Below are positions 1,638-43,805 of a stretch of DNA of 64,000 nucleotides, in pieces. Numbering within the stretch: the stretch's first letter is position 1; each line of letters starts with the position of its first letter. The stretch is from Janibacter limosus. GTDB taxonomy: Bacteria > Actinomycetota > Actinomycetes > Actinomycetales > Dermatophilaceae. Location: positions 1,860,001 through 1,924,000 of the forward strand of contig NZ_CP036164.1 in assembly GCF_004295485.1 (NCBI RefSeq), written 5' to 3'. The notes under the pieces are model-generated. The model was not told the origin of the DNA. It made no database searches and worked only from the letters and a program-made list of their open reading frames with translations. Both the position numbers and the translations under genes were made by a program.

Positions 1638-1646
1638 GCATCGAAT

Positions 1647-4640: not shown

Positions 4641-4708
4641 GCGATGTCCTCTCTCCAGGTGCAGTGGTGGTCCTGCCGGGCATCCTGCCACGGGTAGCCT
4701 CACGCATC

Positions 4709-6382: not shown

Positions 6383-6385
6383 GGC

Positions 6386-6970
6386 TCAGCCCGCCCTTCG
6401 TCGACCGGTCCCGGCCAGGCGGACGAGCTCCGCCAGCTCGTCGAGGGTGACCGAGCCCAGGTGACCGGGCAGGAGCACTGCCGTGGCCGGCGCGCCCGTC
6501 ACATCCCTCATCGACAAGACCTCGGCCGCATCGTCCACGAGCCGGCGGTTGGCAGCGGCGCCCTCGGCGGTCAGCTCGACCCACGCGTACGCGTGCTCAC
6601 CCTCACCCGAGACCCCGGCCGTGACGATCGCGGACCACGGCAGGCGGCACCACGTGTGCATCACCAGGCCGTCATGGTCGAGGACGAGTGTCCTCAGGCT
6701 GCCGCGGAGGTTCCAGATCGCGATCGGCACCCCGACGACGCCGAAGAGGAGGAGCACCAAGATCCCGGCGGGGAGGATGTCCATGCCCGCGTAGTGACGA
6801 CGTTGCCCCGGCTCGAGACCGAAGAGCCCGTTGCCGATCATCGCGAGGCCGACGAGAGCGAAGAGCAGGCACCCGACGAGGATTGCGAGGTCACGCCCGC
6901 TCTGCGCGGTCAGCGCGACCGGCCGTCCTCGCTCGATCGCGCGAGCTGCCCGGCGCGCCCGCCGACCCAC
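6386..6970 (-). CDS. Two-helix membrane protein, PH-like C-terminal domain possible
   Basis: A 194-residue protein of unknown function. A basic N-terminus (RRARRAARAIERGR) is followed by two membrane segments at about 27-48 and 66-85 (ILVLLLFGVVGVPIAIW). A cytoplasmic beta-rich region follows (LRTLVLDHDGLVMHTWCRLP...), which looks like a bacterial PH-type fold. Its GTG start at 6970 shares a base with the stop of the PAC2 gene upstream (TAGTG), so the two are translationally coupled. It converges on the polymerase gene, three bases from its stop. The function is not recognisable. Confidence 0.68.
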   Translation of the reverse strand: MGRRARRAARAIERGRPVALTAQSGRDLAILVGCLLFALVGLAMIGNGLFGLEPGQRRHYAGMDILPAGILVLLLFGVVGVPIAIWNLRGSLRTLVLDHDGLVMHTWCRLPWSAIVTAGVSGEGEHAYAWVELTAEGAAANRRLVDDAAEVLSMRDVTGAPATAVLLPGHLGSVTLDELAELVRLAGTGRRRAG

Positions 6971-7881
6971 TAGGGGTTGTCGGTCTCGTCGACCGTGCGC
7001 AGGAAGTCCTCGAAGTCGGCGCCGATCTCGTCGGCGGACGGGAGGTCGTCCCCTTCGCCGGCGAGCAGGCTGGGCCGCTCGAGCCCGCGCAGGTGGACGT
7101 CGTACTGGCGCTCGAGCGCCTGCACGGCCTCCTTGACCTCGTCGTTCTCCTCGACCTCGCGCTCGATCTGCAGCCGTCCCTCGCGGGCGGCCTCGGCGAG
7201 CGCGTCGTTGGGCAGGTTGAGCCCGGTGACGTCGACGATGGCGTTGAGCGCGGTGAGCGCGGCGTCGTGGAAGGACGACTGCGCCAGGTAGTGCGGCACG
7301 TGGATGCTGAAGCCGACGGCGTCGCGGGAGGACTCCCCCAGCCGCAGCTCGAGCAGCGCCGCGAGCGAGGCCGGGACCTGCACGGTGCCGAAGACCGGCT
7401 TGTGCTCACCGATGAGTCGCTCGTCGGAGCCGTGGACGGTCATGCCGACCGGGCGCGTGTGCGGGACGGCCATGGGGATGCCGTGGGCGTGCACCGCGAT
7501 CGAGATGCCGATCTCGTCCATGAGGGTGGTGACGGCGTCGATGACCGCCTCCCACCGGTAGTCGGGCTCGGGCCCGGTGAGGATGTAGTAGGTCTGGCCG
7601 TCACGGTCGAGCAGGTGGTAGAGCACCAGCGAGGGATCCGAGTAGTCGGTGTACCGGTTGGCGTCGAAGGTGATGACCGGCCGGCGGCTGCGGTAGTCGA
7701 TCAGCGAGTCCACGTCGAAGGAGGCGACCACGGTCGGGTCGCCCGCCTCGAGGAGGTGGTCGACGAGCAGCCGCTGGGCCATGCCCGCGTCGAAGAAGCC
7801 GTCGAAGGCCACGATCACCGGTCCGGGCTGCAGCAGCGCGGTGTCGGTGTCGGCCTCGTAGCGGTAGAGACGCTCGGTCAC
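6970..7881 (-). CDS. PAC2 family protein
   Basis: A 303-residue cytoplasmic protein of the PAC2 (proteasome assembly chaperone-like) family, widespread in actinobacteria; its bacterial role is not established. The family core is visible: GPVIVAFDGFFDAGMAQRLL near the N-terminus, GPEPDYRWEAVIDAV in the middle, GIPMAVPHTRPVGMTVHGS, then an acidic helical C-terminus (EREVEENDEVKEAVQALERQ). I used GTG 7881 (VTERLYRYE); the frame is open for another 2.2 kb upstream, but that is a shadow of hrpA. It is coupled to the small membrane protein downstream through the overlapping TAGTG. Confidence 0.85.
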   Translation of the reverse strand: MTERLYRYEADTDTALLQPGPVIVAFDGFFDAGMAQRLLVDHLLEAGDPTVVASFDVDSLIDYRSRRPVITFDANRYTDYSDPSLVLYHLLDRDGQTYYILTGPEPDYRWEAVIDAVTTLMDEIGISIAVHAHGIPMAVPHTRPVGMTVHGSDERLIGEHKPVFGTVQVPASLAALLELRLGESSRDAVGFSIHVPHYLAQSSFHDAALTALNAIVDVTGLNLPNDALAEAAREGRLQIEREVEENDEVKEAVQALERQYDVHLRGLERPSLLAGEGDDLPSADEIGADFEDFLRTVDETDNP

Positions 7882-7949
7882 GTCGGGGACCTCCTGGTCG
7901 GTGAAACTCTCATTGTGGCAACGACCGGGACGATCCGGCCATTCCCACG

Positions 7950-10900
7950 TCAGGTCGAGATGGCGGCGATGGCGGACCGGACCCGTTTGGCCGAGACCGA
8001 GCGGGCCGTCCCGATGGACTGCGCGAAGAGCGAGATGCGCAGCTCCTCGATCATCCACCCGATGTCGACCACGTCCGGCGAGCGTCGGCGCAGGGGCGGC
8101 AGTGCGTCGAGCAGGTCGGCGTAGGCGGCTTCTACCCCGTCGATCGCCTCCTGGTGGGTGGCGTCGCGGCGTGGGTTCTCCGCGGCGCGCTCCAGCCGAA
8201 GGGAGATCCCGCGCAGGTATCGCCGCAGGTCCGGCAGCCGGTCGAGCCCGGTGTCGGCGATGAAGCCGGGGCGCACGAGCCCGTCGAGCTGGGCCCGCAC
8301 GTCGGCGACGGTCACGCCGAGCGCAGGCGCAGTCATGCGCTCGAGCAGCGCGAGGGCCGCGGTGCGCTGCGCCAGGACCGGCTCGACCTCGGAGACGGCG
8401 GTGAGCACCCGCTGGGCGACATGGGTGCGGGTGGCCGTGAGCGCCTGGTCGAAGTCGGCCCGGGTACGCACCGGTCCGGTGACGTGCTGCAGGACGATGT
8501 CGTCCACGGCGGCCGCGAGGGCGTCGTCGAGGAGCTTCGGGACGGAGCCGTGCGGGTTGTCGGCCAGCGCCAGCTTCTGCGCATTGGTCAGGCGCGCGAG
8601 CACCCTCTTCCACGGAGGGGTGGTGCACAGCAGCAGGAGCCGGCGCACGCCCGCGCGATGGGCGGCGATCGCCTGCTGCTCGTCGGGCAGCACGCGGACG
8701 GCGACGCTGCTCCCTTCGTCCACGAGGGCCGGGTACCCGACGACGGTGTGCTTGCCCGTCCGCGTGCTGAAGGTGCTCGGCAGCTCGTCGAGGTCCCACG
8801 TCGTCAGGCCGGTGCGCTCGATGGAGGCGCCGGCGCGCGACATCCCCTGCTGGACATGGCCGGCGAGGCTCTCGCGCAGGGCTTCGAGGTCCTTGCCGTG
8901 GCCCAGGCGGCGCCGGTTGCCGTCCTCGACGGCGAAGCTGACCCGCAGGTGGTCGGGCACCTTGGCCCAGTCCCACTCCGCCTCGTCGATCCGGATGCCG
9001 CCGCGCCGGCCGAGCACGCTCGACAGCTGCGAGGTGATGGTGGTGCCCGCGTCGGCGTCCAGCTCGGCCAGCGCCGCGCGGGCGTGGTCCGGAGCCGGGA
9101 CGAGGTGGCGGCGGGTGGCCTTGGGGAGCGACTTGATGAGCGCCGTGACCAGATCGGCGCGCAGGCCGGGCACCTGCCAGTCGAAGCCGTCGGCGGTCAG
9201 CCGGTTGAGCACCGCGACGGGGACGTGGACGGTGACGCCGTCGTCCTCGGTGCCGGGCTCGAACTGGTAGGTCACGGCCAGCTCCAGCCCGTCGGTGCGC
9301 CAGCGTCGCGGGTAGTCCCGCTGGTCGACCTGGGCCGCGTCTTCGCGGGTCAAGAGGTCCTCGGTGAGGGTGAGCAGGTTGGGCTGCTCCCGCCGGGCGG
9401 ACTTCCACCAGGTGTCGAAGTGCGCGCCGGAGACGACCTCTGCGGGGATCCGCGCGTCGTAGAAGGCGATGACGTCCTCGTCGTCGACGAGCAGGTCGCG
9501 GCGGCGGGCCCGCTCCTCGAGCTGCTCGAGGCGGCGGGTCAGCTTGCGGTTGGCGGCGAGGAACTCGTGCCGGCCGTCCCACTCGCCCTCGAGCAGCGCG
9601 TGCCGGATGAAGAGCTCGCGGCTGACGACGGGGTCGATCCTGCCGTAGGACACCGAGCGGCCGACGACGAGCGGGACACCGAAGAGGGTGACCCGCTCGG
9701 TCGCCATGACCGACGCCGCCTTCTTGCTCCACCGCGGCTCGGAGTAGGTGCGCTTGACGAGGTGGGCGCCGGCCCGCTCGGCCCACACGGGGTCGATGCG
9801 GGCGGACGAGCGCGCCCACAGCCGTGAGGTCTCGACGAGCTCCCCCGCCATGACGAAGGGGGGTTGCCGCTTGAAGTTCGTGGTGCCGGGTTGGATCGAG
9901 AAGCGCGCTCCGCGCGCCCCGAGGTAGTCGCGCTTGTCCTCGTCGCGCAGACCGATGTGGCTGAGCAGCCCGGTGAGCAGTGCCTGGTGGATCCGGTCCC
10001 AGTCGGGCTCGGCGTCGTCCGCCGAGGTGCGCTGCCGGGTGTCGATCCCCCGCTGCTTGGCAGCGCGCACGAGCTGGGAGTGCAGGTCCTGCCACTCACG
10101 GATCCGCAGGAAGTGCAGGTACTCGCGCTTGCACATCCGGCGGAATGCGCTGCCGGACAACGACTTCTGCTGGTCCTTGAGGTAGATCCACAGGTGCCAC
10201 CAGCTGGCGAAGTCGGAGCCCTCCTGACGGAAGCGCGCGTGCTGCTGGTCGGCCTGCGGGCGCTTGTCGATCGGCCGCTCGCGCGGGTCCTGGATCGACA
10301 TGGCCGAGATGATGACGAGCACCTCGGTGGTGCAGCCGAGCTTGTCGGCCTCGATGAGCATCCGGCCGAGCCGCGGATCGACGGGCAGGCGCGCGAGGGT
10401 CTTGCCGGTCGGGGTGAGCCGACGACCACCGCCGCGGCGTCCTCCCTTCGCCTGCTGGGCCTCGCGGATGGCCGCGCTCTCGGTGTCGAAGGCCTGCAGC
10501 TCCTGCAGCAGGCGGACGCCGTCGGTGATCTGGCGGGAGTCCGGCGGCTCGAGGAAGGGGAACCGGGCCACGTCGCCGAGGCCGAGCGAGGTCATCTGGA
10601 GGATGACGCTGGCGAGGTTGGTGCGCAGGATCTCGGGGTCGGTGAACTCGGGCCGGGACTCGTAGTCCTCCTGCGAGTACAGGCGGATGCAGATGCCCTC
10701 GGCGATGCGGCCACAGCGCCCGGCGCGCTGGTTGGCGGAGGCCTGCGAGACCCGCTCGATCGGCAGGCGCTGGACCTTGGTGCGCTGGCTGTAGCGCGAG
10801 ATGCGCGCGGTCCCGACATCGATGACGTAGCCGATGCCCGGGACGGTCAGTGACGTCTCGGCGACGTTGGTGGACAGCACGATCCGGCGTCCGCGGTGCT

Positions 10901-11771
10901 GGGCGAAGACGCGGTGCTGCTCGGCTGCGGACAGCCGCGCGTAGAGCGGGATGATCTCGGTGTCGGGCAGCTGCATCGAGGTCAGCGCCTCCTGCGCGTC
11001 GCGGATCTCCCGCTCGCCGGAGAGGAAGATCAGCGCGTCTCGCGGGCCATCGCCGTGGGGCTCGGTCCACAGCTCCTCGACGGCCTTGCAGATGCCGGTC
11101 AGCTGGTCGCCGTCGCCGTCGTCCTCCTCGTCGTCGCCCAAGGGTCGGTAGCGGACCTCGACGGGGTAGGTGCGGCCCGAGACCTCGATGATCGGCGCGG
11201 GCTCACCGTCGGGGCCGGCGAAGTGCGCGGCGAAGCGCTCCGGGTCGATCGTCGCGGAGGTGATGACGACCTTGAGGTCGGGGCGGCGCGGCAGCAGCTG
11301 CTTGAGGTAGCCGAGGATGAAGTCGATGTTGAGCGAGCGCTCGTGCGCCTCGTCGATGATGATCGTGTCGTAGCGGCGCAGGTCACGGTCGCGCTGCATC
11401 TCGTTGAGCAGGATGCCGTCGGTCATCACCTTGACCGCGGTGGCGTCGCTGCTGTGGTCGGTGAAGCGCACCTGGTACCCGACGAGCCCACCGAGCTCGA
11501 GGCGCAGCTCCTCGGCGATCCGCTCGGCGACCGAGCGCGCGGCGATCCGACGGGGCTGGGTGTGACCGATCTGCCCGGTGCGTCCGCGGCCGATCTCGAG
11601 GGCGATCTTGGGCAGCTGGGTCGTCTTGCCGGACCCGGTCTCCCCCGCGACGATCACGACCTGGTGGTCCCGCATCGCTGCGGCGATGTCGTCCTTGCGC
11701 GCGACGACCGGCAGGTCCTGCGGGTAGTGCAGGTCCTCCGCGGGGATGGCTTCGCGAAGGGGGATGGGCAT
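7950..11771 (-). CDS. hrpA: ATP-dependent RNA helicase HrpA
   Basis: A 1273-residue DEAH-box RNA helicase, the usual length for HrpA. The helicase core is complete: Walker A GETGSGKT at residues 43-50, DEAH with IIIDEAHERSLNIDF near 138, motif III SATI near 170, and motif VI region QRAGRCGRIAEG near 345. Winged-helix and helical-bundle regions follow, then the long C-terminal DUF3418 region typical of HrpA. E. coli HrpA acts on stalled ribosomes and mRNA processing; a similar role here is inferred. ATG at 11771 chosen from homology (MPIPLREAIP). It stands between the Eis-like gene and PAC2 without overlap. Confidence 0.96.
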   Translation of the reverse strand: MPIPLREAIPAEDLHYPQDLPVVARKDDIAAAMRDHQVVIVAGETGSGKTTQLPKIALEIGRGRTGQIGHTQPRRIAARSVAERIAEELRLELGGLVGYQVRFTDHSSDATAVKVMTDGILLNEMQRDRDLRRYDTIIIDEAHERSLNIDFILGYLKQLLPRRPDLKVVITSATIDPERFAAHFAGPDGEPAPIIEVSGRTYPVEVRYRPLGDDEEDDGDGDQLTGICKAVEELWTEPHGDGPRDALIFLSGEREIRDAQEALTSMQLPDTEIIPLYARLSAAEQHRVFAQHRGRRIVLSTNVAETSLTVPGIGYVIDVGTARISRYSQRTKVQRLPIERVSQASANQRAGRCGRIAEGICIRLYSQEDYESRPEFTDPEILRTNLASVILQMTSLGLGDVARFPFLEPPDSRQITDGVRLLQELQAFDTESAAIREAQQAKGGRRGGGRRLTPTGKTLARLPVDPRLGRMLIEADKLGCTTEVLVIISAMSIQDPRERPIDKRPQADQQHARFRQEGSDFASWWHLWIYLKDQQKSLSGSAFRRMCKREYLHFLRIREWQDLHSQLVRAAKQRGIDTRQRTSADDAEPDWDRIHQALLTGLLSHIGLRDEDKRDYLGARGARFSIQPGTTNFKRQPPFVMAGELVETSRLWARSSARIDPVWAERAGAHLVKRTYSEPRWSKKAASVMATERVTLFGVPLVVGRSVSYGRIDPVVSRELFIRHALLEGEWDGRHEFLAANRKLTRRLEQLEERARRRDLLVDDEDVIAFYDARIPAEVVSGAHFDTWWKSARREQPNLLTLTEDLLTREDAAQVDQRDYPRRWRTDGLELAVTYQFEPGTEDDGVTVHVPVAVLNRLTADGFDWQVPGLRADLVTALIKSLPKATRRHLVPAPDHARAALAELDADAGTTITSQLSSVLGRRGGIRIDEAEWDWAKVPDHLRVSFAVEDGNRRRLGHGKDLEALRESLAGHVQQGMSRAGASIERTGLTTWDLDELPSTFSTRTGKHTVVGYPALVDEGSSVAVRVLPDEQQAIAAHRAGVRRLLLLCTTPPWKRVLARLTNAQKLALADNPHGSVPKLLDDALAAAVDDIVLQHVTGPVRTRADFDQALTATRTHVAQRVLTAVSEVEPVLAQRTAALALLERMTAPALGVTVADVRAQLDGLVRPGFIADTGLDRLPDLRRYLRGISLRLERAAENPRRDATHQEAIDGVEAAYADLLDALPPLRRRSPDVVDIGWMIEELRISLFAQSIGTARSVSAKRVRSAIAAIST

Positions 11772-11802
11772 GGCGGTCAGGATACGTGCGATCTTCGAGG
11801 GG

Positions 11803-13065
11803 TCAGAAGTCGATGGTCCCGACGGGGCCGATCGGGGTGCGCAGGGCGAGGTCCAGCTGCGTGATGGCGTCGCGATCGCCGGTGACGTGGCCGGCGGCGG
11901 CCCGGGCGGCCAGTGACTGCCCACCCAACCAGACCGCGCCGAGGTCGCTGATGTCGAGGACGACGTCCGGCTCGAGGTCGCTGCGGACCAGCGCCCCGAC
12001 GCCCGCGCCGGCGGTCCAGCGCCAGGTGCCGGCCTGGTCGGTGAGGATCTCGTCGCGCACCTGCACGACGACGTCGACGTCCACCGCGTGGCCGCGCTCG
12101 GCGACGGCGGTCGGCAGGTCGACGAGGCGGACCCACAGGTTGTCGGCCACGCCGCTGACGCTCATCGACCGGAGCGAGGGCTGCCAGAGCGCGAGGACGT
12201 CGTCGGGTGCCACCCAGTACTCGGTACTGCCCATCAGGTCGAGGTCGACGAGCCGCTCGGCGAGCGCGAGGCGTGCCCCCGCGTCCACCGACAGGAGGAA
12301 GAAGACCCCCACCTTGCCTGCGGCGCTCCCGTCGTCCCACTTGGGCGTGCGGTGGAAGTAGGCACACCCGACGTCGTGGCCGTCGCGGGTCGCCCACAGC
12401 AACCGGGCCGGCTCTCGCTCCCCGCGACTCTCCGGGGTGTCGGTGAGCAGCCGCTGGCTGTCCTCGGCGCTGCGCACGAGGTGCCCGGGCAGGGTGGTCG
12501 CGCACTCGCGCGCGAGGGCGTGCCATCGCGCGCCCTGGTCCGGGCTCGCCGTCGTGGTCCTCAGGGTGGTGAGCTCGGCGATGTCGCGGACCGACTGCGG
12601 CGCAGCGAACTTCGTGCCCCGCGCGAAGCTGGACATCAGCTCGGAGCTGGCGACGCCGTAGCCGAACCGGCCGTAGATCCCCGGCTCGGACGCCTTGAGC
12701 ACGGCGATCGAGCGCCCCTGCTCGTCACGGGTCCAGCGCAGGTGGTGGGCCATCATCGCGCCGAGCACCCCACGGCGCCGGTGGTCGGGGTGCACACCCA
12801 CCCAGGTCAGGCCCTCTGCGGGGCGAAGGGAGGCGCCCCCCTTCGCCGTCGGGACGGACAGCTCGACGTCCCACGAGCCCGCGATGCCCGCTGGCTCCCC
12901 GTCACGGGTGGCGACGAAACCGGCCCGCCGTGGGGTGTCGCGCAGCGCATCCGCCCGTGGCACCCGGCCGGACGCGGACCAGACGAGCTCGTCGAGGTCG
13001 AGGATCTGCTGGACGGCTGCGTCGTCGGCGGGGTCGATGCGGGTGACGTGGATGTCGGAGGGCAT
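11803..13065 (-). CDS. Eis-like GNAT family N-acetyltransferase
   Basis: A 420-residue protein with the tripartite Eis layout: an N-terminal GNAT domain, a second degenerate GNAT region and a C-terminal sterol-carrier-like domain ending in a terminal phenylalanine (GPVGTIDF), whose carboxylate is the catalytic base in Eis enzymes. The acetyl-CoA loop is seen as TWVGVHPDHRRRGVLGAMM near residue 90, followed by SEPGIYGRFGYGVAS, which is characteristic of the family. Eis enzymes acetylate amines including aminoglycosides; whether this one confers resistance cannot be told. ATG at 13065. No partner genes are evident. Confidence 0.85.
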   Translation of the reverse strand: MPSDIHVTRIDPADDAAVQQILDLDELVWSASGRVPRADALRDTPRRAGFVATRDGEPAGIAGSWDVELSVPTAKGGASLRPAEGLTWVGVHPDHRRRGVLGAMMAHHLRWTRDEQGRSIAVLKASEPGIYGRFGYGVASSELMSSFARGTKFAAPQSVRDIAELTTLRTTTASPDQGARWHALARECATTLPGHLVRSAEDSQRLLTDTPESRGEREPARLLWATRDGHDVGCAYFHRTPKWDDGSAAGKVGVFFLLSVDAGARLALAERLVDLDLMGSTEYWVAPDDVLALWQPSLRSMSVSGVADNLWVRLVDLPTAVAERGHAVDVDVVVQVRDEILTDQAGTWRWTAGAGVGALVRSDLEPDVVLDISDLGAVWLGGQSLAARAAAGHVTGDRDAITQLDLALRTPIGPVGTIDF

Positions 13066-35389: not shown

Positions 35390-35809
35390 ATGAGTCGATG
35401 GTGGCCGGCGATGACCGGTGTGGTCGCGAGCGTCGTCCTGCTCGTGCAGACGGTACTCACCGGCGACCTGTCGTTGCTCGTGCTCGCCGTGGGCTTCCTC
35501 GTCCTCGCGTGGTGGCTGTCACCACTCAACGGACGCGGGGGCCCGCGGCACACCGACATCGAGGCACACCGTGGGGACTTCCCCGTGGTCGTCTACTGGC
35601 GTCCGGGATGCGTCTACTGCCTGCGCCTGCGCGGTGCCCTCGGCAAGGACAAGGACAAGGCGACCTGGGTCAACATCTGGGCCGACGAGGAGGCCGCCGC
35701 CTTCGTCCGCTCGATCAACGACGGCAACGAGGTCGTCCCGACCGTGCGCATCGGCGAGCAGGTGCACACCAACCCCGAGCCGGACCTCGTCAGAGCCGCG
35801 CTGCGCTGA
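35390..35809 (+). CDS. Membrane-anchored mycoredoxin/glutaredoxin-like protein
   Basis: A 139-residue protein with two hydrophobic N-terminal segments (GVVASVVLLVQTVLTG and LLVLAVGFLVLAWWL) followed by a glutaredoxin fold with the redox motif CVYC (WRPGCVYCLRLRG, near residue 75), the cis-proline region VVPTVRIG and a C-terminal helix. Mycoredoxins reduce mycothiol mixed disulfides in actinobacteria, so this is probably a mycothiol-dependent thiol oxidoreductase at the membrane. Its end overlaps the end of the convergent sir2 gene by 20 bases. ATG at 35390. Confidence 0.82.
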   Translation: MSRWWPAMTGVVASVVLLVQTVLTGDLSLLVLAVGFLVLAWWLSPLNGRGGPRHTDIEAHRGDFPVVVYWRPGCVYCLRLRGALGKDKDKATWVNIWADEEAAAFVRSINDGNEVVPTVRIGEQVHTNPEPDLVRAALR

Positions 35810-36755
35810 GCTCCTCCACGAGAGAGCGAAGGGAGTCCCCCAGCTCCCCGTCGACGCGATGATCGACGAGGTCGTCACCACGGGTGGGACCACGGGTGAT
35901 CAGGGAGACCGGGATCCCCCGCTTGGCCGCGTGGCGGACGAAGCGCAGCCCCGACATCACCTGCAGCGAGCTGCCGAGCACGAGCAGGCTGGGCGCAGCA
36001 TCGACGAGGTCGTAGCAGTGCTGCACCAGCGGCTTGGCCACCGATCCACCGAAGAAGACGACATCCGGCTTGAGGGTGTCGGCCCCGCACGCCTGGCAGG
36101 TCGGGGTGCGAAACCGCTCGACGTCCACGCTGTCCAGCCGGACGTCACCATCGGGTCGGATCTCGTCGCTGTCGACGTCGAAGCCGGGGTTGTCCCTGGC
36201 CATCCGCGCGTCGAGCGTCGGGCGATCGATGCGGGCCCCGCAGGTGAGGCAGACGACCTCGACGAGGTTGCCGTGCAGCTCGACGACCTCCCTCGTCCCG
36301 GCCGCCTGGTGCAGTCCGTCGACGTTCTGCGTGATGAGCGGACCGACCGTGCCGAGCTGCTGCAAGCGGGTGACCAGGTGGTGCGAGACATTGGGCCGCG
36401 CCGCGTGGAACCGGCGCCAGCCGACAAAGCTGCGCGCCCAGTACCGCTGCCGTGCCTCGCTGCTGCCGACAAACTCCGAGTAGTGCATCGGGGTGACCCG
36501 GCGCGTGCCGTCGGGCCCGCGATAGTCAGGGATCCCACTGTCGGTGGAGTAGGTGTTGTTAGTAACAGTGTTTGTGAAGCGCCACTGGCGAGCCGCCTCG
36601 AACTCTTCCTCGGGGGCTCCGGGCTCGGGCCACGGGCGATAGCAAGGGATCCCAGATCCCACGCTCATGCCTGCACCGCTCAGGACCAGAGCCGGTCCGT
36701 GCTGGGTCAGGACGTCAGCGATCTTGGACAGCACCTCATCTTGCTCACCCACCAT
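35790..36755 (-). CDS. Sir2 family NAD-dependent deacylase, chimeric 5' end supplied by an integrated element
   Basis: A sirtuin that uses NAD+ to deacylate lysines. The chromosomal part (residues 71-321) has TDSGIPDYRGPDG, ITQNVDGLH (142-149), catalytic His161 in VELHGNL, zinc cysteines 169/172/220/223 and GSSLQV. Residues 1-70 are encoded by the integrated element and repeat a Sir2 N-terminus (KIADVLTQHGPALVLSGAGM, SGIPCYR). The chimera thus has about 39 extra residues (VGSGIPCYRPW to NNTYS) between GAGMS and TDSGIP, in the NAD-binding loop. The native first 24 codons are at 43688..43759. A leaderless promoter (TAGCAT, 36762..36767) precedes ATG 36755. Whether the chimera is active is unknown. 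Confidence 0.85.
   Translation of the reverse strand: MVGEQDEVLSKIADVLTQHGPALVLSGAGMSVGSGIPCYRPWPEPGAPEEEFEAARQWRFTNTVTNNTYSTDSGIPDYRGPDGTRRVTPMHYSEFVGSSEARQRYWARSFVGWRRFHAARPNVSHHLVTRLQQLGTVGPLITQNVDGLHQAAGTREVVELHGNLVEVVCLTCGARIDRPTLDARMARDNPGFDVDSDEIRPDGDVRLDSVDVERFRTPTCQACGADTLKPDVVFFGGSVAKPLVQHCYDLVDAAPSLLVLGSSLQVMSGLRFVRHAAKRGIPVSLITRGPTRGDDLVDHRVDGELGDSLRSLVEELSAARL
36530..36560. other. Left attachment junction of the element (attL or attR by orientation)
   Basis: Chromosomal sir2 sequence (CCACTGTCGGT) meets element sequence (GGAGTAGGTGTTGTTAG). The shared core is GGT at 36543..36545, within GGTGGA here and GGTCGA at the other end. Both junctions split the same ACC (Thr) codon of sir2. 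Confidence 0.75.
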
Positions 36756-36853
36756 GTCTCGATGCTAGGCCGTGGCCTCTGGCGGCGTTCACCACTGTCG
36801 GAGACGCGATCTATCGTCTGGTCAACGACAAACTCTCTGGCGGGAGCAACAAC

Positions 36854-37735
36854 ATGACCGAACGATTCGTACCCCTCAACGTGCGGATGAGCAACGACCC
36901 TGCGGTGCACGACCGATGGAACGTCCTGCACGAGGGCATGCCGCCCCACCTGCGGCCAAGCGTCGAGGGATGGCTCAACGAGGTCTTCTACGCGTTCCGA
37001 GACATCCCCGGAATCTGTGCCCGGACCCTCCAGTTCCAGACGGGCGAGGACCCAGACGACGCGCTTCGGGGATACATGTCTGACACAGACGACTCAGCCC
37101 TTCGGGTCGTTGACATGGTGCTTCAGATCCTCGGCAGCAAGTTCGAAGATGCCGAGGGGAGTTCCAGCAGCCTCACCGCGAACAAGGCCGCGAAGTTTTG
37201 GGTGGAGATTGACGACTACTTCGTTCAGGCCAACTCGGCATGGCGCATCGAGCAGGAGCCGACATGGATGCTGGGCCGGATCGTGGACGAGACCACGACG
37301 CGCGCGTTTGAGGACGTCCGCGACAGCGGGACCACGGCGGGACGGCTGCTAGCCGAGGCATGGCAGGCATCGTTCAAGCATGACGCGGACTACACGGAGG
37401 GCTACCGGAAGGCCGTGCTCGCAGTCGAAAGCGTTGCCATCTCAAAGTTCTGCCCGGACAACACGAGAGCGACGCTCGGAACCGCAATCCGGGATTTCAG
37501 GAGTCAAGGGCCGAAGTGGACTGTCGCCGGTCTGGACGACCAAGTTCAGCAGTCCAGGGACACGCTCCTCGCCATGCTGGAGTCAATCTGGCAGAACCAG
37601 CAGCGCCACGTGAAGCACGACGGCAACGCACCAGAGCCCGCTGAGCAGGACGAGACCGAGGCGGTCCTCTTCCTTGCGATCACGATCGTTCAGTGGTTCC
37701 AGCGCGGCTTCGTCCAGAAGAAGCCGGGCTCCTAA
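36854..37735 (+). CDS. Abi-like protein (possible HEPN C-terminal domain), element cargo
   Basis: A 293-residue soluble protein. The N-terminal half (NVLHEGMPPHLRPSVEGWLN) is not clearly assigned but recalls the small N-terminal domains of AbiJ-type proteins. The C-terminal half follows the pattern of the domain at the end of many abortive-infection proteins: KAVLAVESVAISKFC, a TLGTAIRDF segment, a helical region, then NQQRHVKHDGNAPE, which resembles the R-x(n)-H of HEPN RNases, and the closing helix FLAITIVQWFQRG. A defence role as element cargo is inferred. It lies next to the left end of the element and is the only plus-strand gene in it. GGGAG precedes ATG 36854. Confidence 0.55.
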   Translation: MTERFVPLNVRMSNDPAVHDRWNVLHEGMPPHLRPSVEGWLNEVFYAFRDIPGICARTLQFQTGEDPDDALRGYMSDTDDSALRVVDMVLQILGSKFEDAEGSSSSLTANKAAKFWVEIDDYFVQANSAWRIEQEPTWMLGRIVDETTTRAFEDVRDSGTTAGRLLAEAWQASFKHDADYTEGYRKAVLAVESVAISKFCPDNTRATLGTAIRDFRSQGPKWTVAGLDDQVQQSRDTLLAMLESIWQNQQRHVKHDGNAPEPAEQDETEAVLFLAITIVQWFQRGFVQKKPGS

Positions 37736-38394
37736 CTGATCCGTCGGGCGGCGTTCTGTCGCTCCCGGAGGCAGGTCCGGCACCTGCGGGACCCGTTGGC
37801 CTCGGTGACCACGTTGTCACCGGCCAGCGGGTGCCCGCGCCGACAGACCGGGTAGCGCCCGTCTGGGCCTCTCAGGTGGTCGGGGTGAACCCACGTGTGC
37901 TCGGCTCGCTGCTCCCGCGAGCGCTCCAACACGCAGATCCTGCAGCGTCGGCGCGGACGCTTCCCTCCCGACCACGCGGCCACGGCTGGATCGGTGAGGT
38001 CGTGACCGCGAGGGCAGCAGGCGGGCAGTTGAGTGTCCTCTTCGTCTTTCTCGCATCGTCGCCTAGACCCGAGGCGTCCCACGGGCCACAAAGTCATGTG
38101 CTTGACCGCGACGCAGCCCGGGCGGCTGCAGGTCGTGGCGACGGTGAACCCGGGCGGGACTCGACGGTGCAGCGACTGGATCCAGACGAGCGTCCGCACC
38201 GGCAGCAGGCGGCCCGCGGCGGCGACCATCGGGACGCCCTTCACGTGCACGCCCTGCCACGGGAGGCAGTAGTCCTTCCGTAGGTGCCGCGACATCGCGT
38301 GGAGCGCTGCGGCTACTCGCGCTGGTGGGGCCGACACGAACGCCGACCCCACCAACGGTCCCGTGAGCGAAGTCCACCCACTCTCACGGGACAA
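37732..38394 (-). CDS. Zinc-knuckle / HNH-like phage-type protein
   Basis: A protein of up to 220 residues rich in Cys/His pairs: TCSRPGCVAVKHM, ACCPRGHDLT, RRCRICVLERS, VCRRGHPLAGDN and RRCRTCLRERQ. C-x-x-GH...CR-x-C modules of this type end many phage HNH proteins. The central GVHVKGVPMVAAAGRLLPVR and LVWIQSLHR could be the recognition region. The catalytic H-N-H order is not fully convincing, so the activity is uncertain. The upstream start is unclear (TTG 38394 or ATG 38295). Its 3' end overlaps the convergent Abi-like gene by three bases. It is the last gene of the leftward operon. Confidence 0.6.
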   Translation of the reverse strand: MSRESGWTSLTGPLVGSAFVSAPPARVAAALHAMSRHLRKDYCLPWQGVHVKGVPMVAAAGRLLPVRTLVWIQSLHRRVPPGFTVATTCSRPGCVAVKHMTLWPVGRLGSRRRCEKDEEDTQLPACCPRGHDLTDPAVAAWSGGKRPRRRCRICVLERSREQRAEHTWVHPDHLRGPDGRYPVCRRGHPLAGDNVVTEANGSRRCRTCLRERQNAARRIS

Positions 38395-38433
38395 CGACGT
38401 GCCTCCGGACCACGGTGCACATCGCTGGTCTCA

Positions 38434-39090
38434 TCACAGGCGGACGAAGCCTGCAGGTCGAGTCCGCGACGACGGGCGACGCGGCGGCGTGGACTCCGGC
38501 GCTCCGTGACCGTCCATGATCCGCGGACCACCACGCTCCACCGGAACCAGCGCGAACGGGTCGCGGCCATGCTGGAGGACGTCCACAACCTCTTCGACGC
38601 CCCACCGGGTCACGGTCCGCTCCCCTGCTGTCGGGCGTGGGATCGCCTTCTTCTGGCTGTCGGCGAGCGTCCGTGCTTCGGCGACTACGCGAGCGTCCTG
38701 ACGCAGTTCCTGCGCTGCTTCCGCGAGGACCGCGACCGCTGCGGCCACGTCATCTCGCCGGGTAGCCCACCTGCCCCGGGCAGCCGCTTCGAGATCGGGC
38801 AGGACTTCGGCCTTCAGCCGCTTCTCTTCGTCCCTCAGCAGGTCGTGCTCGCGCTGCAGGTGCCGAATGGCGTCGGTGTTCGCTCGCCCTGGCTTCTCGG
38901 GCGCTTCCTGCGGGATCGGATGGCCCTGATCCGCTGCCTTCTCCACCGCTTCCCGGTGAGCGTCGAGCGCTGCCCGGTACGCCTCGGCTTCTTCCCGGGC
39001 GGCGGCGGACACCTTGGCGCGGCGCGCCTGCAGTTCGGCCACGCGCTGCTCGTGCTCGACCCAGCGCGGGTGCTCTTCGAGGATGCTCAC
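38434..39090 (-). CDS. Coiled-coil protein of the element, unknown function
   Basis: A 218-residue charged protein. Residues 1-150 are mostly Glu/Arg/Ala-rich helix (HEQRVAELQARRAKVSAAA, REHDLLRDEEKRLKAEVL), a likely long coiled coil. The C-terminus is proline/arginine-rich. The GTG at 39090 overlaps the stop of the 68-residue gene upstream (GTGA), which fixes the start and shows translational coupling. The next gene downstream starts 40 bases away. I recognise no family; a scaffold or DNA-associated role would be a guess. Confidence 0.6.
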   Translation of the reverse strand: MSILEEHPRWVEHEQRVAELQARRAKVSAAAREEAEAYRAALDAHREAVEKAADQGHPIPQEAPEKPGRANTDAIRHLQREHDLLRDEEKRLKAEVLPDLEAAARGRWATRRDDVAAAVAVLAEAAQELRQDARVVAEARTLADSQKKAIPRPTAGERTVTRWGVEEVVDVLQHGRDPFALVPVERGGPRIMDGHGAPESTPPRRPSSRTRPAGFVRL

Positions 39091-39293
39091 GACCGCTCCC
39101 TCTTCGCGGCCCACTTCTGCTGGACAGCCTCGGCGCGCATCTTGTCCTCGGTGGACGTCGCGCACAGGCGGATGCTCGACAGAACGCCTCGCTGCCACTC
39201 GGTGGGCTCGGTGATCTCCTCGAACCGGGTCAGGGTCTCGCGCTGCGGGTCGTTGAGCCCGGCGCGAATGCTGGCCTGCGGCGTGTACGTCAT
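39087..39293 (-). CDS. Small element protein, unknown function
   Basis: A 68-residue protein (MTYTPQASIRAGLNDPQRET, ending WAAKRERS), probably helical and slightly basic. It sits between two genes with 4-base overlaps on both sides (ATGA upstream, GTGA downstream), which supports it as real. Its size would suit a recombination directionality factor or DNA-binding accessory protein, but no motif proves that. Confidence 0.55.
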   Translation of the reverse strand: MTYTPQASIRAGLNDPQRETLTRFEEITEPTEWQRGVLSSIRLCATSTEDKMRAEAVQQKWAAKRERS

Positions 39294-39556
39294 CGGCTGG
39301 CCTTCCCGGGTGCGCGGCGAGCCTTGCCGACCGGAGTCGCGTCCTGCACGGCCTGCATCTTCCGCACGAGCGGTGACATGGACCGTCGGTTGCGGGCCTC
39401 GCGGGCGTACCTCCCTCGGGAGATGTTCACTCCGGATGGGCGTCGGTCTGGGTCGCCCATGCCTTCGTGGCCCGGGCCGTAGTAGCCGTACGGCGTCGGC
39501 CCGCTCACCGGGGTGGGGTACGGCACCGTCTGGGCGGTGTCCGGGGGTGTGGTCAT
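39290..39556 (-). CDS. Small basic element protein, unknown function
   Basis: An 88-residue protein with a Pro/Tyr/Gly-rich N-terminus (VPYPTPVSGPTPYGYYGPG) and a basic C-terminus (SRGRYAREARNRRSMSPLVR, then KARRAPGKASR), which suggests nucleic-acid binding. ATG 39556 is used; its stop overlaps the start of the 68-residue gene. It follows the HNH gene by 79 bases. Confidence 0.55.
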   Translation of the reverse strand: MTTPPDTAQTVPYPTPVSGPTPYGYYGPGHEGMGDPDRRPSGVNISRGRYAREARNRRSMSPLVRKMQAVQDATPVGKARRAPGKASR

Positions 39557-39635
39557 GGTCTTGCTCCTTCGTTGGTGGACGTTCTCAGGGTCTCTGCGGG
39601 ACCGGTCGGGAGGCGGGTACGACACCGCTCACGTA

Positions 39636-40070
39636 TTACGGGCGGTCCGCCGTGCCAGCAGATCTCGTAGACGCCTCGTGACGGGCTGGGGCGCTCTCGG
39701 GTGGGTGGTTGGGAGGGCTCGGCCCAGAGATCGCCTGTACGTGGCCGGACGGTCGCCGATTCGCCCAGGAGCCCCGGTGGTGGAGGTGCATCTCGTTCCA
39801 GTCCATCTCGCGGCAGTGGTCGGGGCGGACGCACAGCCGGTCACCACAGACGACGTGGACCAGCATCTTGCTCGTCGGTCCGTGCTCGGCTTCCCACAGG
39901 ACGCGGTGCAGCAGCCTCCCGCCCGTCGTCGCTGGGTACCGCGCTCCGCACCCGGACCGTGCCCCACGGACAGCACGCCAGCACCCGGTGTCTCGGTCCA
40001 CGTCGATCCGCGCCCAGTGCTCGGGAGGCACTGACGTCCGGAACTCTTCGGCATCGCTCGCGGTGCTCAT
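39636..40070 (-). CDS. HNH endonuclease, phage type
   Basis: A 144-residue protein. The phage HNH pattern is clear: TGCWRAVRGARSGCGARYP, LLHRVLWEAEHGPTSK, VHVVCGDRLCVRPDHCREM, with the Cys pair and C-terminal His that coordinate zinc/metal. Small phage HNH enzymes nick or cut DNA, often to help packaging or gene mobility. The ATG at 40070 overlaps the stop of the rep-like gene (ATGA). It is one of two Cys/His-rich proteins in the operon. Confidence 0.75.
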   Translation of the reverse strand: MSTASDAEEFRTSVPPEHWARIDVDRDTGCWRAVRGARSGCGARYPATTGGRLLHRVLWEAEHGPTSKMLVHVVCGDRLCVRPDHCREMDWNEMHLHHRGSWANRRPSGHVQAISGPSPPNHPPESAPARHEASTRSAGTADRP

Positions 40071-41158
40071 CGCGCCGCCCTCCGCTGCTCCTGCGTATTC
40101 GACTTCACTGGGCGACCCTGAGGACGGCCACCAGCGATCACACCGAGTCGAGAGCGTCGTTGGTCCGACGCCCAGTCCAGCCACATCTCACGGGCCTTGT
40201 CGTGACGCTCCCGGACCTTCTCGCCCCTGCCTGCCGTGCGACGGAACTTCGCCACCGCATCGAGGCGTCGAGCAAGTCCCTCAGCGTCGGTAACCAGCGG
40301 CCTCCACGTCCCATCGTCCAGTCGCTCGACCAGACCGAGACCATGCATCTCCCCTAGCCGGGTTCGGACCGTGCGATCAGTGACTCCCAGCGCCTCCGCG
40401 ATCACTCGGGCGGACGCCGGGTCGTCGGTCATCAGGAGCAGCCGCAGCACCCTGTACCCAGTGCCTCCGAGGGCTCCACGCCTGAACGCGTCGTGGGCGG
40501 AAGATATAGGGACAGTCTCTGCACCAGAGAACAGTCTGACTACTGTCCCTGTATCTTCCGTGGGCTTCCGGAGGGTCCAGCCGGTTCCTGTGGTGTCAGT
40601 GCTGTCGTGGGTCTTCTTCAGCCAGCCTGCGTCGATGAGCCTTCGGGTGGCCCGGTGTGCTGTGTCGGCGCTTCCGAGTCCGGCTTCTTCGGTGATCTGT
40701 CGGAGTGACGCTCGGAGCACCGGTCCGCCTGCTTTTTGGGCGAGTCGGCACAGGGCATCGAGCACGAGTCGGTCTGTGGTGCCGGTGCGCCCCTTCCACG
40801 GTCGGGCTTCGGCGCTCGCGTGGATCTGGGCGACCTTCTCGGACGCTGACTGTCGGTCTACGACGGGTGGGTTGGCCGCGATGAACTTTCGGGCGCTCTC
40901 GATGCGGTAGCGGAGGTCCCCGGTGGCGGCTGGTCCGCCGTTGCGCTCGGCCAGGCGGCGGTACCACCAGCCTCCGCGGTGCTCAGGGTCGAGCAGTGCC
41001 TCGCGCATCTGCTGTTCGGTCCAGTGGTGTTGGACCATCGACGTGACGAGCGTCCGGTACGCCTTGTGCGGGTCATCTTCGATGCCATGGCGTAGGCGGT
41101 CCTGCATCTCGCGGGACAGCGGCGTTCGCTGGGGTGGGTCTCCAACTTCATGGGCCAT
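40067..41158 (-). CDS. Replication-initiator-like winged-helix protein of the element
   Basis: A 363-residue protein. The N-terminal part (ALLDPEHRGGWWYRRLAERN, then RIESARKFIAANPP) resembles the C-terminal segment of primase/replication proteins of actinobacterial plasmids and prophages. Two winged-helix regions follow: LVLDALCRLAQKAGGPVLRA with SADTAHRATRRLIDAGWLKK near 150-200, and GYRVLRLLLMTDDPASARVI with TDRTVRTRLGEMHGLGLVER near 255-305. A basic tail ends it. A long inverted repeat lies inside the coding sequence (40498..40560). ATG 41158 is preceded by a 337-base control region. A role in element replication or regulation is inferred. Confidence 0.6.
   Translation of the reverse strand: MAHEVGDPPQRTPLSREMQDRLRHGIEDDPHKAYRTLVTSMVQHHWTEQQMREALLDPEHRGGWWYRRLAERNGGPAATGDLRYRIESARKFIAANPPVVDRQSASEKVAQIHASAEARPWKGRTGTTDRLVLDALCRLAQKAGGPVLRASLRQITEEAGLGSADTAHRATRRLIDAGWLKKTHDSTDTTGTGWTLRKPTEDTGTVVRLFSGAETVPISSAHDAFRRGALGGTGYRVLRLLLMTDDPASARVIAEALGVTDRTVRTRLGEMHGLGLVERLDDGTWRPLVTDAEGLARRLDAVAKFRRTAGRGEKVRERHDKAREMWLDWASDQRRSRLGVIAGGRPQGRPVKSNTQEQRRAAR
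40498..40560. repeat. Long inverted repeat inside the rep-like gene
   Basis: Arms of 19 bp (CGGAAGATATAGGGACAGT at 40498..40516 and its complement with one wobble at 40542..40560) flank a 25-base loop that includes CTCTG/CAGAG. It is AT-richer than its surroundings. It could be a replication or transfer origin, a protein-binding site, or an mRNA hairpin that controls the operon. Confidence 0.8.
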
Positions 41159-41495
41159 GACGGCCTCCCTTTCGGTCTGACCGTCGTGACTAGCGACGGC
41201 GCGGGGCGATTCACTTAGATCGCTCTTCCGCCAGAAAGGGTGTTGCAACTCCAATCCTAGGAGACCCACGCGACACGCTTCGGAGGACTCGTGGTGTGTC
41301 GTGGGCTGATGGCAAAATGGGCTCCACGCGGGAGTGACTCCCCGCGAAGAACGTCACCGGGCTTACTTCCTTTCACCGGCCTGACCTTCGGTCTCGACGC
41401 CCTCCGGACTTCACGACGGGGGGCGTCGGCATGTCCACGGGGGCGGCGCTCTCGATGTGCGCTCGATGTACTCCCGGTGGCCAGTCGCCCTGGGC
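41159..41495. other. Intergenic control region of the element, no gene seen
   Basis: This 337-base stretch lies upstream of the leftward operon and downstream of the DUF488-like gene. It contains an imperfect palindrome CGCGGGAGTGACTCCCCGCG (about 41329..41348) and a hairpin CTGGG/CCCAG at the DUF488-like stop, a likely terminator. The operon promoter must be here; no protein-like frame is convincing. Confidence 0.5.
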
Positions 41496-41882
41496 TCAGT
41501 CCCAGAGCGTCGGCGGGGCCGGGGCGAGTTCGGGCACGGTCAGGCCGCGGCGAGCGAGCCAGTCAGCGGCCCATCTGCGGTGGCACTCGTTCGTCCCGTC
41601 CAGCACTTCCCAACACATGAGGACCAGCCGTTGGCCCGGGTGCCTCGCGGTGAGGTCTTGCAGGGCTGCGGCTACTCGGGCCTCGGTGTCATCCAACTGC
41701 CGCCAGTACCGGGCGCGCTGCACGGTCAGGGGCTGGTCGTCCATCTTCCGGAAGACAGTCCACGGCTTCAGCGGGTCGCACTGCTCCGCTTCACGGAATC
41801 GCGGGTGCTTCCCGATGCTCGTCCCGACCGCGACACCCATGTCCGGCGTGAACTGCGAGTACGAGCACGTCGCGAGGTTCAC
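41496..41882 (-). CDS. DUF488-like protein of the element
   Basis: A 128-residue protein. The end matches DUF488 proteins: LVLMCWEVLDGTNECHRRWA, with the C-x-E...C-H-R pattern, then LARRGLTVPEL. The N-terminus (MNLATCSYSQFTPDMGVAVG) and YWRQLDDTEARVAAAL differ from the chromosomal DUF488 gene at 59404..59934. DUF488 function is unknown. It starts three bases after the stop of the serine recombinase and so is in its transcript. Such genes often accompany actinobacterial integrases, which may suggest a link to integration or excision, but that is inference. Confidence 0.65.
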   Translation of the reverse strand: MNLATCSYSQFTPDMGVAVGTSIGKHPRFREAEQCDPLKPWTVFRKMDDQPLTVQRARYWRQLDDTEARVAAALQDLTARHPGQRLVLMCWEVLDGTNECHRRWAADWLARRGLTVPELAPAPPTLWD

Positions 41883-41885
41883 GGG

Positions 41886-43574
41886 TCAGTCCGCCAGCAC
41901 CGTGCCCTGCAGGTACCAAGAGTCCGGGTCGCGCCACACGATCTCGATGCTGTCGGTGTCGAACTTCCGGCCTCGCACCTTCGTCGGGTGGATGACGACC
42001 CTCTCGACGTACATGCGGATCCAGTACCGCTGCGCGTTGATCGCCTTGGCCTTCTGCTCCTTCAGCCCGTCGGCCTTGTTCTTCTGGGCCTCTGTGAGGA
42101 CTGGGATCTCCGGTACGACGTCCTTCCCGGCTTTCTGCTCCTTGGTCTCCTTATCCCACTTCTTCTGCTGCTCCTGCGTCCAAACGTCGCGCTCGTCACC
42201 GTTCGGCAGCAGACTCGCGGAGTACTCGAACGCCTTCGTGAGGTCGAACTGGCCGTACTCGTGCGAGGCCATGCGGTGGCCGGCTCGCATCTGCAGCGCT
42301 TCCCGCCGCTCGGTCTGCAATGCCTCGATCTCCGCTTCGATCTTCTGCGTCATCCGCGCCAGCCGGGCCGGGTCGCCGCCGTTGCTCACGAACTTGTCTT
42401 CGAGGTCCGCGAGCCGGTCCTCCAACGCGGTGATCTCCTTCGTCCGGTCGACCGTCTCCTCGACTCGCCACTCGACCCGGCGAGGCTCCACCTTCAGCGC
42501 GTAGTCACGCACCTGATCCAGCACGTACCGGTCCGTCTGGTCACGGTCCCGCGACAGGTGCCCACGACACCGGTAGGACACCTTCCCGTTCGTCTGCTGG
42601 TGCGGCAGCAACTTCTCACCGCACGTCCCGCACCGCGTCAACGTCCCCGACAGCAGGTGCCGCCGCGTGGACGTCCAGTTGTCCACGACCACCCGCCTGT
42701 TCTCCAACGCGTGCACCACCTCGTCATGCAGCGACGTGGAGATGATCGGCGTGACACCCTCCGCCATGACCGGGTGCCCCGCGTCGTCATAGACGATCTC
42801 CCGCCCGTGGAAGATGTAGCCCGCGTGCCTCGGGTTCCCAGCGACCTCCCGGACCTTCCGGACGTCCCACCTTCGGTCCCCAGCGGTCTTGATGCCGCGC
42901 CCGTTCAACGACCGCGCGATCTCTGAGAGCGAGTCACCTGCCGCAAGCCGCTCACACATCTCCTTGACGACCCGCGCCTCTGTCGGACGGGGCCGCTTGT
43001 GGTCCTTCGACCAGCCGTAGGGCCGCATACCGCGCTGAGCCATGCGCCCTGACAGGCGAGCCTGCTCGTTGCGTCGCAGCACACGCTCACTCGTCGCGTC
43101 CGCCTCCATGTTCGCGACCACCGCCAGCAGCGCTGTCTGCCCTCTCCCCTGCGCTGTCGTCAGGTCCAGGTCTCCCCCGACCGTCGCGACAAGCACGTCA
43201 TGCTCCTTCGCGACCTCGATAAAGCGCACCGCGTCGTCCAACCGCCGCACCAGCCTGTCCAGCCGGTACGCGATGACCGCCCGCACCTCACCCGCCTTCA
43301 TCGCCGCCACCAGCGCCTCGAACTTCGGGCGGCGTCCCCTCGTCGCAGACGTGTCGTTCTCCACCAACACCCACGACTCGTCCACCTCCCACTCACGAGC
43401 CTCCGCGTACTTCCGACACGCCTGCTCCTGACGCTCGACACCGAGCCCTTCCATGGCCGCGTCACGCGAGATACGGCAGTAGACCGCCGTCTTCACCTTC
43501 GTCTGCGACGACTTCCGCGACCGCGCTTGTGATCTGCGGCGGGACTGGACGGTCGGGGCGCTCACCGCTCCCAC
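41886..43574 (-). CDS. Large serine recombinase (integrase)
   Basis: A 562-residue site-specific recombinase. The resolvase/invertase catalytic domain spans about 28-175, with catalytic Ser36 in VYCRISRD and the arginine motif IAYRLDRLVRRLDDAV. The recombinase domain follows (RPTEARVVKEMCERLAAGDS ... NPRHAGYIFHGREI, about 190-300). A zinc ribbon (RCGTCGEKLL ... YRCRGH, about 320-345) and a coiled-coil tail with QTERREALQMRAG complete it. It catalyses insertion between attP and a sir2 attB and is encoded beside the right junction, as usual. GTG 43574 or GTG 43565 are possible starts. Confidence 0.93.
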   Translation of the reverse strand: MGAVSAPTVQSRRRSQARSRKSSQTKVKTAVYCRISRDAAMEGLGVERQEQACRKYAEAREWEVDESWVLVENDTSATRGRRPKFEALVAAMKAGEVRAVIAYRLDRLVRRLDDAVRFIEVAKEHDVLVATVGGDLDLTTAQGRGQTALLAVVANMEADATSERVLRRNEQARLSGRMAQRGMRPYGWSKDHKRPRPTEARVVKEMCERLAAGDSLSEIARSLNGRGIKTAGDRRWDVRKVREVAGNPRHAGYIFHGREIVYDDAGHPVMAEGVTPIISTSLHDEVVHALENRRVVVDNWTSTRRHLLSGTLTRCGTCGEKLLPHQQTNGKVSYRCRGHLSRDRDQTDRYVLDQVRDYALKVEPRRVEWRVEETVDRTKEITALEDRLADLEDKFVSNGGDPARLARMTQKIEAEIEALQTERREALQMRAGHRMASHEYGQFDLTKAFEYSASLLPNGDERDVWTQEQQKKWDKETKEQKAGKDVVPEIPVLTEAQKNKADGLKEQKAKAINAQRYWIRMYVERVVIHPTKVRGRKFDTDSIEIVWRDPDSWYLQGTVLAD

Positions 43575-43660
43575 CTGCCGACTCCAGCCGGGCGGGTGAA
43601 AAGCGTTGGGAGAGAAGGGGATTGGGGTGCGGTGTGAGGTGTTGAGGGCATGCCCTCATT

Positions 43661-43759
43661 TTAGTGTGTAAGTAGGTGTGGGAGGTAGGTCGACATGCCT
43701 GCACCGGTCAGGACGAGGGCCGGTCCGGCCGTCAGCACACGGGCGATGTCCTCGATCAC
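43661..43759 (-). pseudogene. Displaced native 5' end of sir2
   Basis: Translating from GTG 43759 gives 24 native residues (VIEDIARVLTAGPALVLTGA, then GMST). The next codons (TACCTC...) are element DNA and reach TAA at 43661. Joined to 36545 at the shared ACC codon they restore the canonical GAGMSTDSGIPDYRG. A -10-like CATACT lies six bases before the GTG. Excision should rebuild the uninterrupted gene. Confidence 0.85.
43670..43705. other. Right attachment junction of the element
   Basis: Element sequence (AGTAGGTGTGGGAGGTA) meets sir2 sequence (CGACATGCCTGCACC) at the GGT core 43688..43690. AGTAGGTGT also occurs just inside the left junction (36548..36556), a short direct repeat of the attP arms. 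Confidence 0.75.
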
Positions 43760-43805
43760 CCGACCAGTATGGGCGCCCGGCACGGGCCCGACCTACGATG
43801 GCCCC

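Follow-up and report, generated by a model that had tools for sequence, protein, structure and literature searches.

Results

A serine-recombinase element in a sir2 gene

We analysed a stretch of 64,000 nt from Janibacter limosus (hereafter the window; positions 1,860,001 to 1,924,000 of contig NZ_CP036164.1, assembly GCF_004295485.1), whose genome consists of one contig of 3.55 Mb. In keeping with this genus, a Janibacter anophelis sirtuin (P0031) shows 98% identity to the sirtuin of the congener G012. In the window, an integrated element of 7,145 bases (36543..43687) splits a sir2 (sirtuin) gene, and the left part of this gene continues as an open frame into the element. Features given below lie on the minus strand unless marked (+). 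The chimeric ORF (35790..36755) encodes 321 amino acids (aa), of which residues 1-71 are derived from the element and residues 72-321 form an ordinary sirtuin. The host part, from the Asp after the crossover Thr to the stop codon (35790..36542), is SIRT4-like (PF02146, E=2.7e-36) and 95% identical to the sirtuin of the congener G011; the closest solved structure is that of Xenopus Sirt4 (5oj7). The element-borne 5' segment (36543..36755) comprises 71 codons from an ATG and is in frame with the host gene. At the other end of the element, the first 24 codons of the native gene (VIEDIARVLTAGPALVLTGAGMST; 43688..43759) are stranded together with their GTG start; in congeners they are joined to the sir2 body. 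The G+C content of the element is 67.0% and that of the 71-codon segment 62.4%, compared with 70.5% elsewhere in the window.

The two junctions have only ACC in common, the crossover Thr codon (36543..36545 on the left, where it reads GGT on the plus strand, and 43688..43690 on the right), and the predicted core dinucleotide is AC/GT. Judged by eye, the reconstructed bacterial attachment site (attB) is TGTCG-AC-CGACA, an inverted repeat centred on this dinucleotide. Each half of the reconstructed attachment site of the element (attP) holds one copy of AGTAGGTGT (36548..36556 and 43671..43679), in direct and not in inverted orientation. Near the right end lies the gene of a large serine recombinase, i.e. 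an integrase (41886..43574; phrog_95 integrase, E=1e-85), with Resolvase (2e-25) and Recombinase (4e-14) domains and a zinc ribbon (2e-5) that scores just below the cut-off (25.2 versus 25.3 bits). Its invariant residues were judged in an alignment of 19 sequences. The Resolvase and Recombinase domains, the very short core and an attB symmetric about the dinucleotide are the marks of a large serine recombinase system.

A preliminary description of this stretch, made from the letters alone, had placed the core GGT in one Thr codon at both ends, had recognized the 24 stranded native codons, and had proposed that the element supplies an in-frame start (here the ATG at 36755, with the hexamer TAGCAT upstream) and a Sir2-like segment. 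All of this was found at the locus. Its figure of about 70 in-frame codons was close, the exact count being 71 with the shared Thr, and its count of 39 extra residues in the NAD-binding loop agrees with ours.

The empty site in relatives

The frame GAGxSTxSGIPDYRG is unbroken in 14 of 15 congeners, among which G001 is the most diverged. In the remaining genome (G015, 79% complete), a sir2 orthologue was not found and there were weak matches to other sirtuins only. In six congeners examined, the native GTG lies at the same distance from GAG as the stranded start. Two observations would have spoken against the preliminary description, namely a 70-residue N-terminus in relatives without the element and the lack of the native 24-codon start in uninterrupted homologues. 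Neither was made: the uninterrupted congeners have no extension, and the six have the GTG with the same spacing. A native sir2 query matched 173 of 186 genomes of the family (E 1e-50). Among the matches listed (150 of the 173), the N-terminus is lost at the crossover site only in the window and in G094, a genome of another genus of the same family; the match starts at query residue 18 in the window, at residue 22 in G094 and at residue 14 or earlier in all others.

A second chimera in another genus

The 71-residue segment was searched in 396 genomes of the order, 71 of which had a match. Besides the window itself, the best match was in G094 (E=4e-16), followed by one at 8e-8. Fusion in G094 is at the same codon as in the window (...VSEIADVLKQHSPALVLTGAGMSVDSGIPCYRPWPPENSVSKTPHST|ESGIPDYRG...) and the fused sir2 is an open frame. 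The segments of the two genomes are homologous both as protein and as DNA. They have 34 codons in common (SKIADVL...GAGMSVGSGIPCYRPWP; 36627..36728 in the window), with 29/34 residues identical, including the non-host motif CYRPWP. The following linker of the window segment (codons 44-70; 36546..36626), which contains the attP half-site, is not present in G094. At a cut-off of E 1e-5 the borrowed segment occurs in 2 of the 186 family genomes, and with a profile of the two segments no other row aligned beyond the Arg of SGIPxYR (103 of 186 family genomes and 90 of 394 class genomes were matched). The DNA pattern for GIPCYRPWP has a single match in the window and was absent from all 100 shuffles; together with the G094 match, this indicates that the segment is not a product of chance. 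The proposal of the preliminary description that a captured sir2 5' segment restores an open gene is thus supported by a homologous segment at the same codon. Its wider expectation of such segments beside serine recombinases in other genomes was borne out in part: the segment has a second occurrence, but it adjoins a serine recombinase only in the window.

In four siblings of G094 sir2 is uninterrupted, and DNA homology to them picks up again at the junction (L128:7946). On the other side, homology to the sibling G096, where an isochorismatase gene adjoins sir2 as it does in G094, ends near L128:6546 and is followed by ~1.4 kb of other DNA. This insertion holds a 274-aa frame that is present in 3 of the 186 family genomes, G094 included. 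A recombinase was not seen among the frames listed at positions 1-12000 of the 19,958-base contig, and a native sir2 stump was not found in G094. We infer from the segment and the inserted DNA on this one draft contig that an element has decayed at the G094 locus while the fused gene stayed in place. The isochorismatase gene was considered as cargo of the G094 element and rejected: G096, one of eight siblings, has it beside sir2 without the segment, and it was assigned to the host. Outside the shared segment, the two insertions also have 25 bp in common (E=0.004), a match that we put down to chance.

The spacing of start and promoter motifs is the same in both chimeras. A −10-like TAnnnT lies precisely 6 nt upstream of each element start, TAGCAT (36762..36767) before the ATG in the window and TACGCT before the GTG in G094. 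In actinobacteria, a layout of TAnnnT, six nucleotides and a start codon denotes leaderless transcription. The native genes have a comparable arrangement, CATACT-N6-GTG in 7/7 Janibacter cases (six congeners and the stump, with the hexamer at 43766..43771) and TACGAT-N6-GTG in 5/5 native sir2 genes examined in the genus of G094.

The borrowed segment is conserved as protein, with its crossover rewritten

Of the codon changes between the segments over the 34 shared codons, 15 are silent and 5 replacing (dN/dS 0.067, a rough value because dS is as high as 1.5). Third positions account for 19 of the 24 base differences (binomial p=5e-6). When equally many changes were placed at random, a mean of 19 and a maximum of 26 identical residues were left in 5000 trials, compared with the 29 observed. 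Part of the low dN/dS could stem from constraint that acted on host genes before the capture. As the sole explanation, such inherited constraint is weakened by the V, C and PWP found in both segments, where T, D and GPD are invariant in 46 aligned natives. These 46 (alignment A4) were hand-picked from 120 listed native homologues; P0069, which starts inside the loop, was part of alignment A3 and excluded from A4.

The differences from native genes are concentrated at the crossover. Compared with its own host native, the window segment differs at 10/12 crossover bases and at 5/51 flanking bases (p=1.3e-6); with 15 other natives, the differences were 7-11/12 and 7-15/51. The G094 segment differs from eight natives at 7-9/12 crossover and 11-15/51 flanking bases. 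Pairs of natives (n=66) differ at a mean of 3.1/12 (maximum 6) and 8.0/51, and the two segments differ from each other at 3/12 and 13/51 bases (both values from the codon table). The two Ser codons of the crossover stretch come from the other Ser codon box than in the own host. We infer that the rewriting makes the borrowed copy unfit as an attB for the recombinase. At 36636..36698, the flanks of the window segment are nearest to the own host allele; this suggests local exchange with the native stump, which lies 7 kb away in direct orientation.

The chimeric protein

In the chimera, the NAD-binding loop GAGxSxxSGIPDYRG is split by 39 residues. It is unbroken in the native homologues examined, and the insert is absent from all 120 that were listed. 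In a model of the chimera, the borrowed helix and strand are predicted to fold as a sirtuin N-terminus and most of the 39-residue insert, as of the linker, is of low confidence; confidence is below 50 at residues 32-41 and 57-76, where the greater part of both loop copies lies. The model matches the sirtuin fold over its full length. H161, C169, C172, C220 and C223, which we take to be the catalytic His and the zinc cysteines, are invariant in alignment A3. The sir2 body of the window has no change at columns that are invariant among the 13 other congeners compared. That the segment was kept as protein across two diverged copies suggests that the chimera is most likely a working, or at least a structurally sound, sirtuin.

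Other genes of the element

A 293-aa ORF (36854..37735, +) adjoins the left end and is divergent from the chimeric gene; it has a weak match to the candidate defence family PDC-S32 of padloc (E=0.002) and no Pfam match above the cut-off. In G094, the 274-aa frame (L128:6772-7596) is divergent as well and occupies the same place, yet it encodes a different protein. Further to the right lie genes for an HNH endonuclease-like protein (37732..38394; phrog_826, 1e-20), a 254-aa ORF of unassigned function (38434..39198; weak phage-helicase matches, best E=0.004, and nothing in the Pfam and padloc scans) and an HNH endonuclease (39636..40184; PF13392, 8e-8). The 400-aa winged-helix protein encoded at 40067..41269 (HTH_36, 3e-8; MarR_2, 2e-9) has weak matches to phage replication initiators and is perhaps such an initiator. 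A DUF488-like protein (41496..41882; PF04343, 0.001, below cut-off; phrog_2450 of unknown function, 3e-7) is encoded to the left of the recombinase gene. Besides the 293-aa and 254-aa ORFs, frames of 111 and 68 aa are without known function.

From the native promoter, a 32-aa frame (43661..43759, by eye) runs for nine codons, including the stop, into the element and towards the recombinase gene. The severed promoter faces this gene and may drive its transcription once the element is integrated. A perfect 14-bp palindrome, GAGGGCATGCCCTC (43644..43657, by eye), lies between the right attachment site and the recombinase gene and is a possible operator.

Searches for related elements

A single-protein locus search with the recombinase gave no close relatives in genome_contigs or viral_contigs. 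The alignment-based search gave 8 and 48 loci, respectively, with a best segment identity of 54%, and the matches in phages and plasmids (393 and 34 records) were all below 60% identity. The nearest relatives were P0003 (92% identical) and P0004 (84%), both from the source 'lgn'. Recombinase loci other than the sir2 loci had no convincing piece of sir2 (best E=0.1; the stump of the window itself gives 0.002). The borrowed segment had no match in the phages collection and one in plasmids, a Thermomicrobium sirtuin gene, and the DNA pattern for GIPCYRPWP had none in viral_contigs. A protein search with chimera residues 1-75 gave one native sirtuin among 38 candidates. At L062:2126-2677, in a metagenome-assembled genome of Nocardioidaceae, a short frame resembles the start of a recombinase of the same subfamily (54% identity across residues 23-172). 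It adjoins nrdR- and nrdJ-like genes (named by eye), and the like genes of the window end ~2 kb from sir2. This frame may be a relic of an insertion in the same neighbourhood.

Discussion

Taken together, the results make it probable that a small serine-recombinase element inserts at an attB in the part of a sirtuin gene that encodes the NAD-binding loop, and keeps the gene open with a borrowed, edited copy of its 5' end. On this reading, the large serine recombinase would use the loop-coding sequence as attB. Integration has severed the native promoter and the first 24 codons. At the level of sequence, the edited copy, placed just within the left attachment site of the element, contributes a start codon, the N-terminal helix, the first Rossmann strand and GAGMS in frame to the remaining sirtuin, to which it is joined by the translated attP half-site as a linker. 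The leaderless-type promoter of the element, known as a motif, would drive the fused gene, and the rewritten crossover, which no longer matches attB, would keep the borrowed copy safe from the element's own recombinase.

Several observations weigh against this reading. By eye, inverted symmetry was not seen in attP, which is usually symmetric, and direct AGTAGGTGT repeats are present instead. CATACT fits TAnnnT in part only, so that the promoter assignment is one of spacing and partial likeness. The structural evidence consists of the chimera model. The NAD loop is enlarged, by 39 residues in the window and by 23 in G094, and the loop of the element departs from the native invariants (T to V, D to C, GPD to PWP). 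The sir2 body of G094 has 7 lineage-specific changes compared with 2-5 in the rest of a set of six, and the highest mean pN/pS of that set (0.271; others 0.210-0.262), which leaves room for slight relaxation. The cases are two in all: an element in G094 is deduced from its segment and the inserted DNA, and the G094 genome has no match to the window recombinase at E 1e-30.

Alternatively, the element may keep the gene expressed but retune it. With its second, altered loop (CYRPWP), the chimera would then not be a restored host enzyme but a sirtuin whose activity is changed, reduced or regulated to the advantage of the element. The borrowed stretch extends beyond the crossover point, which pure repair would not need. 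The non-host V, C and P-W-P are identical in two diverged copies despite silent changes in several of these or neighbouring codons, the 46 natives have other, invariant residues at these places, and model confidence is low over most of both loop copies. However, plain loss of function requires no repair segment, the model matches the sirtuin fold over its full length, and the sir2 body of the window has no private change at invariant columns. We regard retuning as a possible but less favoured explanation. Going further, the element might install a re-engineered sirtuin, with the element-specific loop GAGMSVxSGIPCYRPWP and a linker placed before the host loop, as an altered NAD-dependent enzyme in its own service. 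This we hold to be rather doubtful; if true, the change can outlast the recombinase, as G094 suggests.

Two other origins of the segment were considered. The wholly different linkers after PWP, and flanks in which the window segment is closer to its own host (5/51) than to the G094 segment (13/51), would be expected if the two segments had been captured independently from host sirtuins and then converged. Local gene conversion from the host could account for this closeness, though, and convergence would have to explain five common differences from natives (V, C, P, W, P), crossover bases that differ between the segments at only 3/12, an insert found in none of the 120 native homologues listed, and the lack of any other family or class row that aligns beyond the Arg before PWP. 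We consider independent capture improbable. More improbable still is an origin as a passive relic, in which faulty excision carried off part of the host sir2 and the frame is open by chance. The 51 flanking bases are indeed nearest to the own host allele (5 differences versus 7-15 in the 15 other natives), but a homologous segment is under strong protein-level constraint in a second genus, start and −10 motif are equally spaced in both, the crossover bases are rewritten in both, and the frame is preserved through non-homologous linkers of two lengths.

The proposed repair of the interrupted sirtuin gene by an edited copy is of interest beyond this locus. Serine-integrase elements that enter genes are described, in the sections of PMC8092301 used here, as breaking them. 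Since attP and attB share almost no sequence, seamless repair is closed to such elements, and the window offers a way round: a separate edited 5' copy and translation of the attP half-site as a linker. The question whether elements can make lasting changes to the active-site loop of a host enzyme becomes directly testable, given fusions at one codon in two genera, constraint at the protein level, and a fused gene that is present although its genome yielded no related recombinase. An edited 5' copy adjoining attP is a search rule for further cases.

Insertion within an ORF by a serine integrase with a short core links the window to the serine-integrase prophages of M. abscessus and to Bxb1 in groEL1, whose cores are of 5 to 8 bp; in the part of the M. 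abscessus survey consulted, however, three serine-integrase sites lie in frames that the phages disrupt, whereas here the frame is rebuilt (PMC8092301). As described in the same source, elements that target tRNA genes resemble the window in bringing a replacement for the displaced gene part, and one group rebuilds the tRNA 5' end. Their common core of 25 to 76 bp lies within the tRNA gene, unlike the ACC of the window, where the replacement is a separate upstream copy (PMC8092301). A word search in the main text of a large survey of serine recombinases gave no hit for Sir2 or deacetylase (PMC10083194), and in the open-licence literature that we searched, no serine-integrase element in sir2 and no serine-integrase repair of a protein gene turned up.

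The window shares with the elements in prfC and dusA an insertion within the 5' part of a gene, with the empty site in relatives, and an element-encoded, homologous in-frame start; a site-specific recombinase adjoins the attachment site in the window and was not found at the G094 locus. SXT is a large conjugative element, and the integrases of SXT and of the dusA elements are of the tyrosine type. According to the relevant passages of PMC8409611, the dusA element IMEVchUSA3 provides a new promoter and a new in-frame N-terminus, with expression of a lacZ fusion, and its first 35 residues are 61% identical to native DusA. The discussion of that paper ascribes a new promoter and N-terminus to SXT in prfC as well, and states that it is unknown there how the changed N-terminus affects activity (PMC8409611). 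The promoter-type start and in-frame N-terminus of the window are thus like those of IMEVchUSA3, with the promoter recognized here by its motif; the new N-terminus of DusA is of identical length, whereas the chimera of the window gains 39 residues and that of G094 gains 23, and the crossover bases of the borrowed copy are rewritten. Target-gene repair is therefore known in principle and is not new as a strategy. The window differs from the systems described above in the class of its recombinase, in its NAD loop, which is both larger and altered, and in relying on an edited copy that is separate from the core rather than on a core that is shared.
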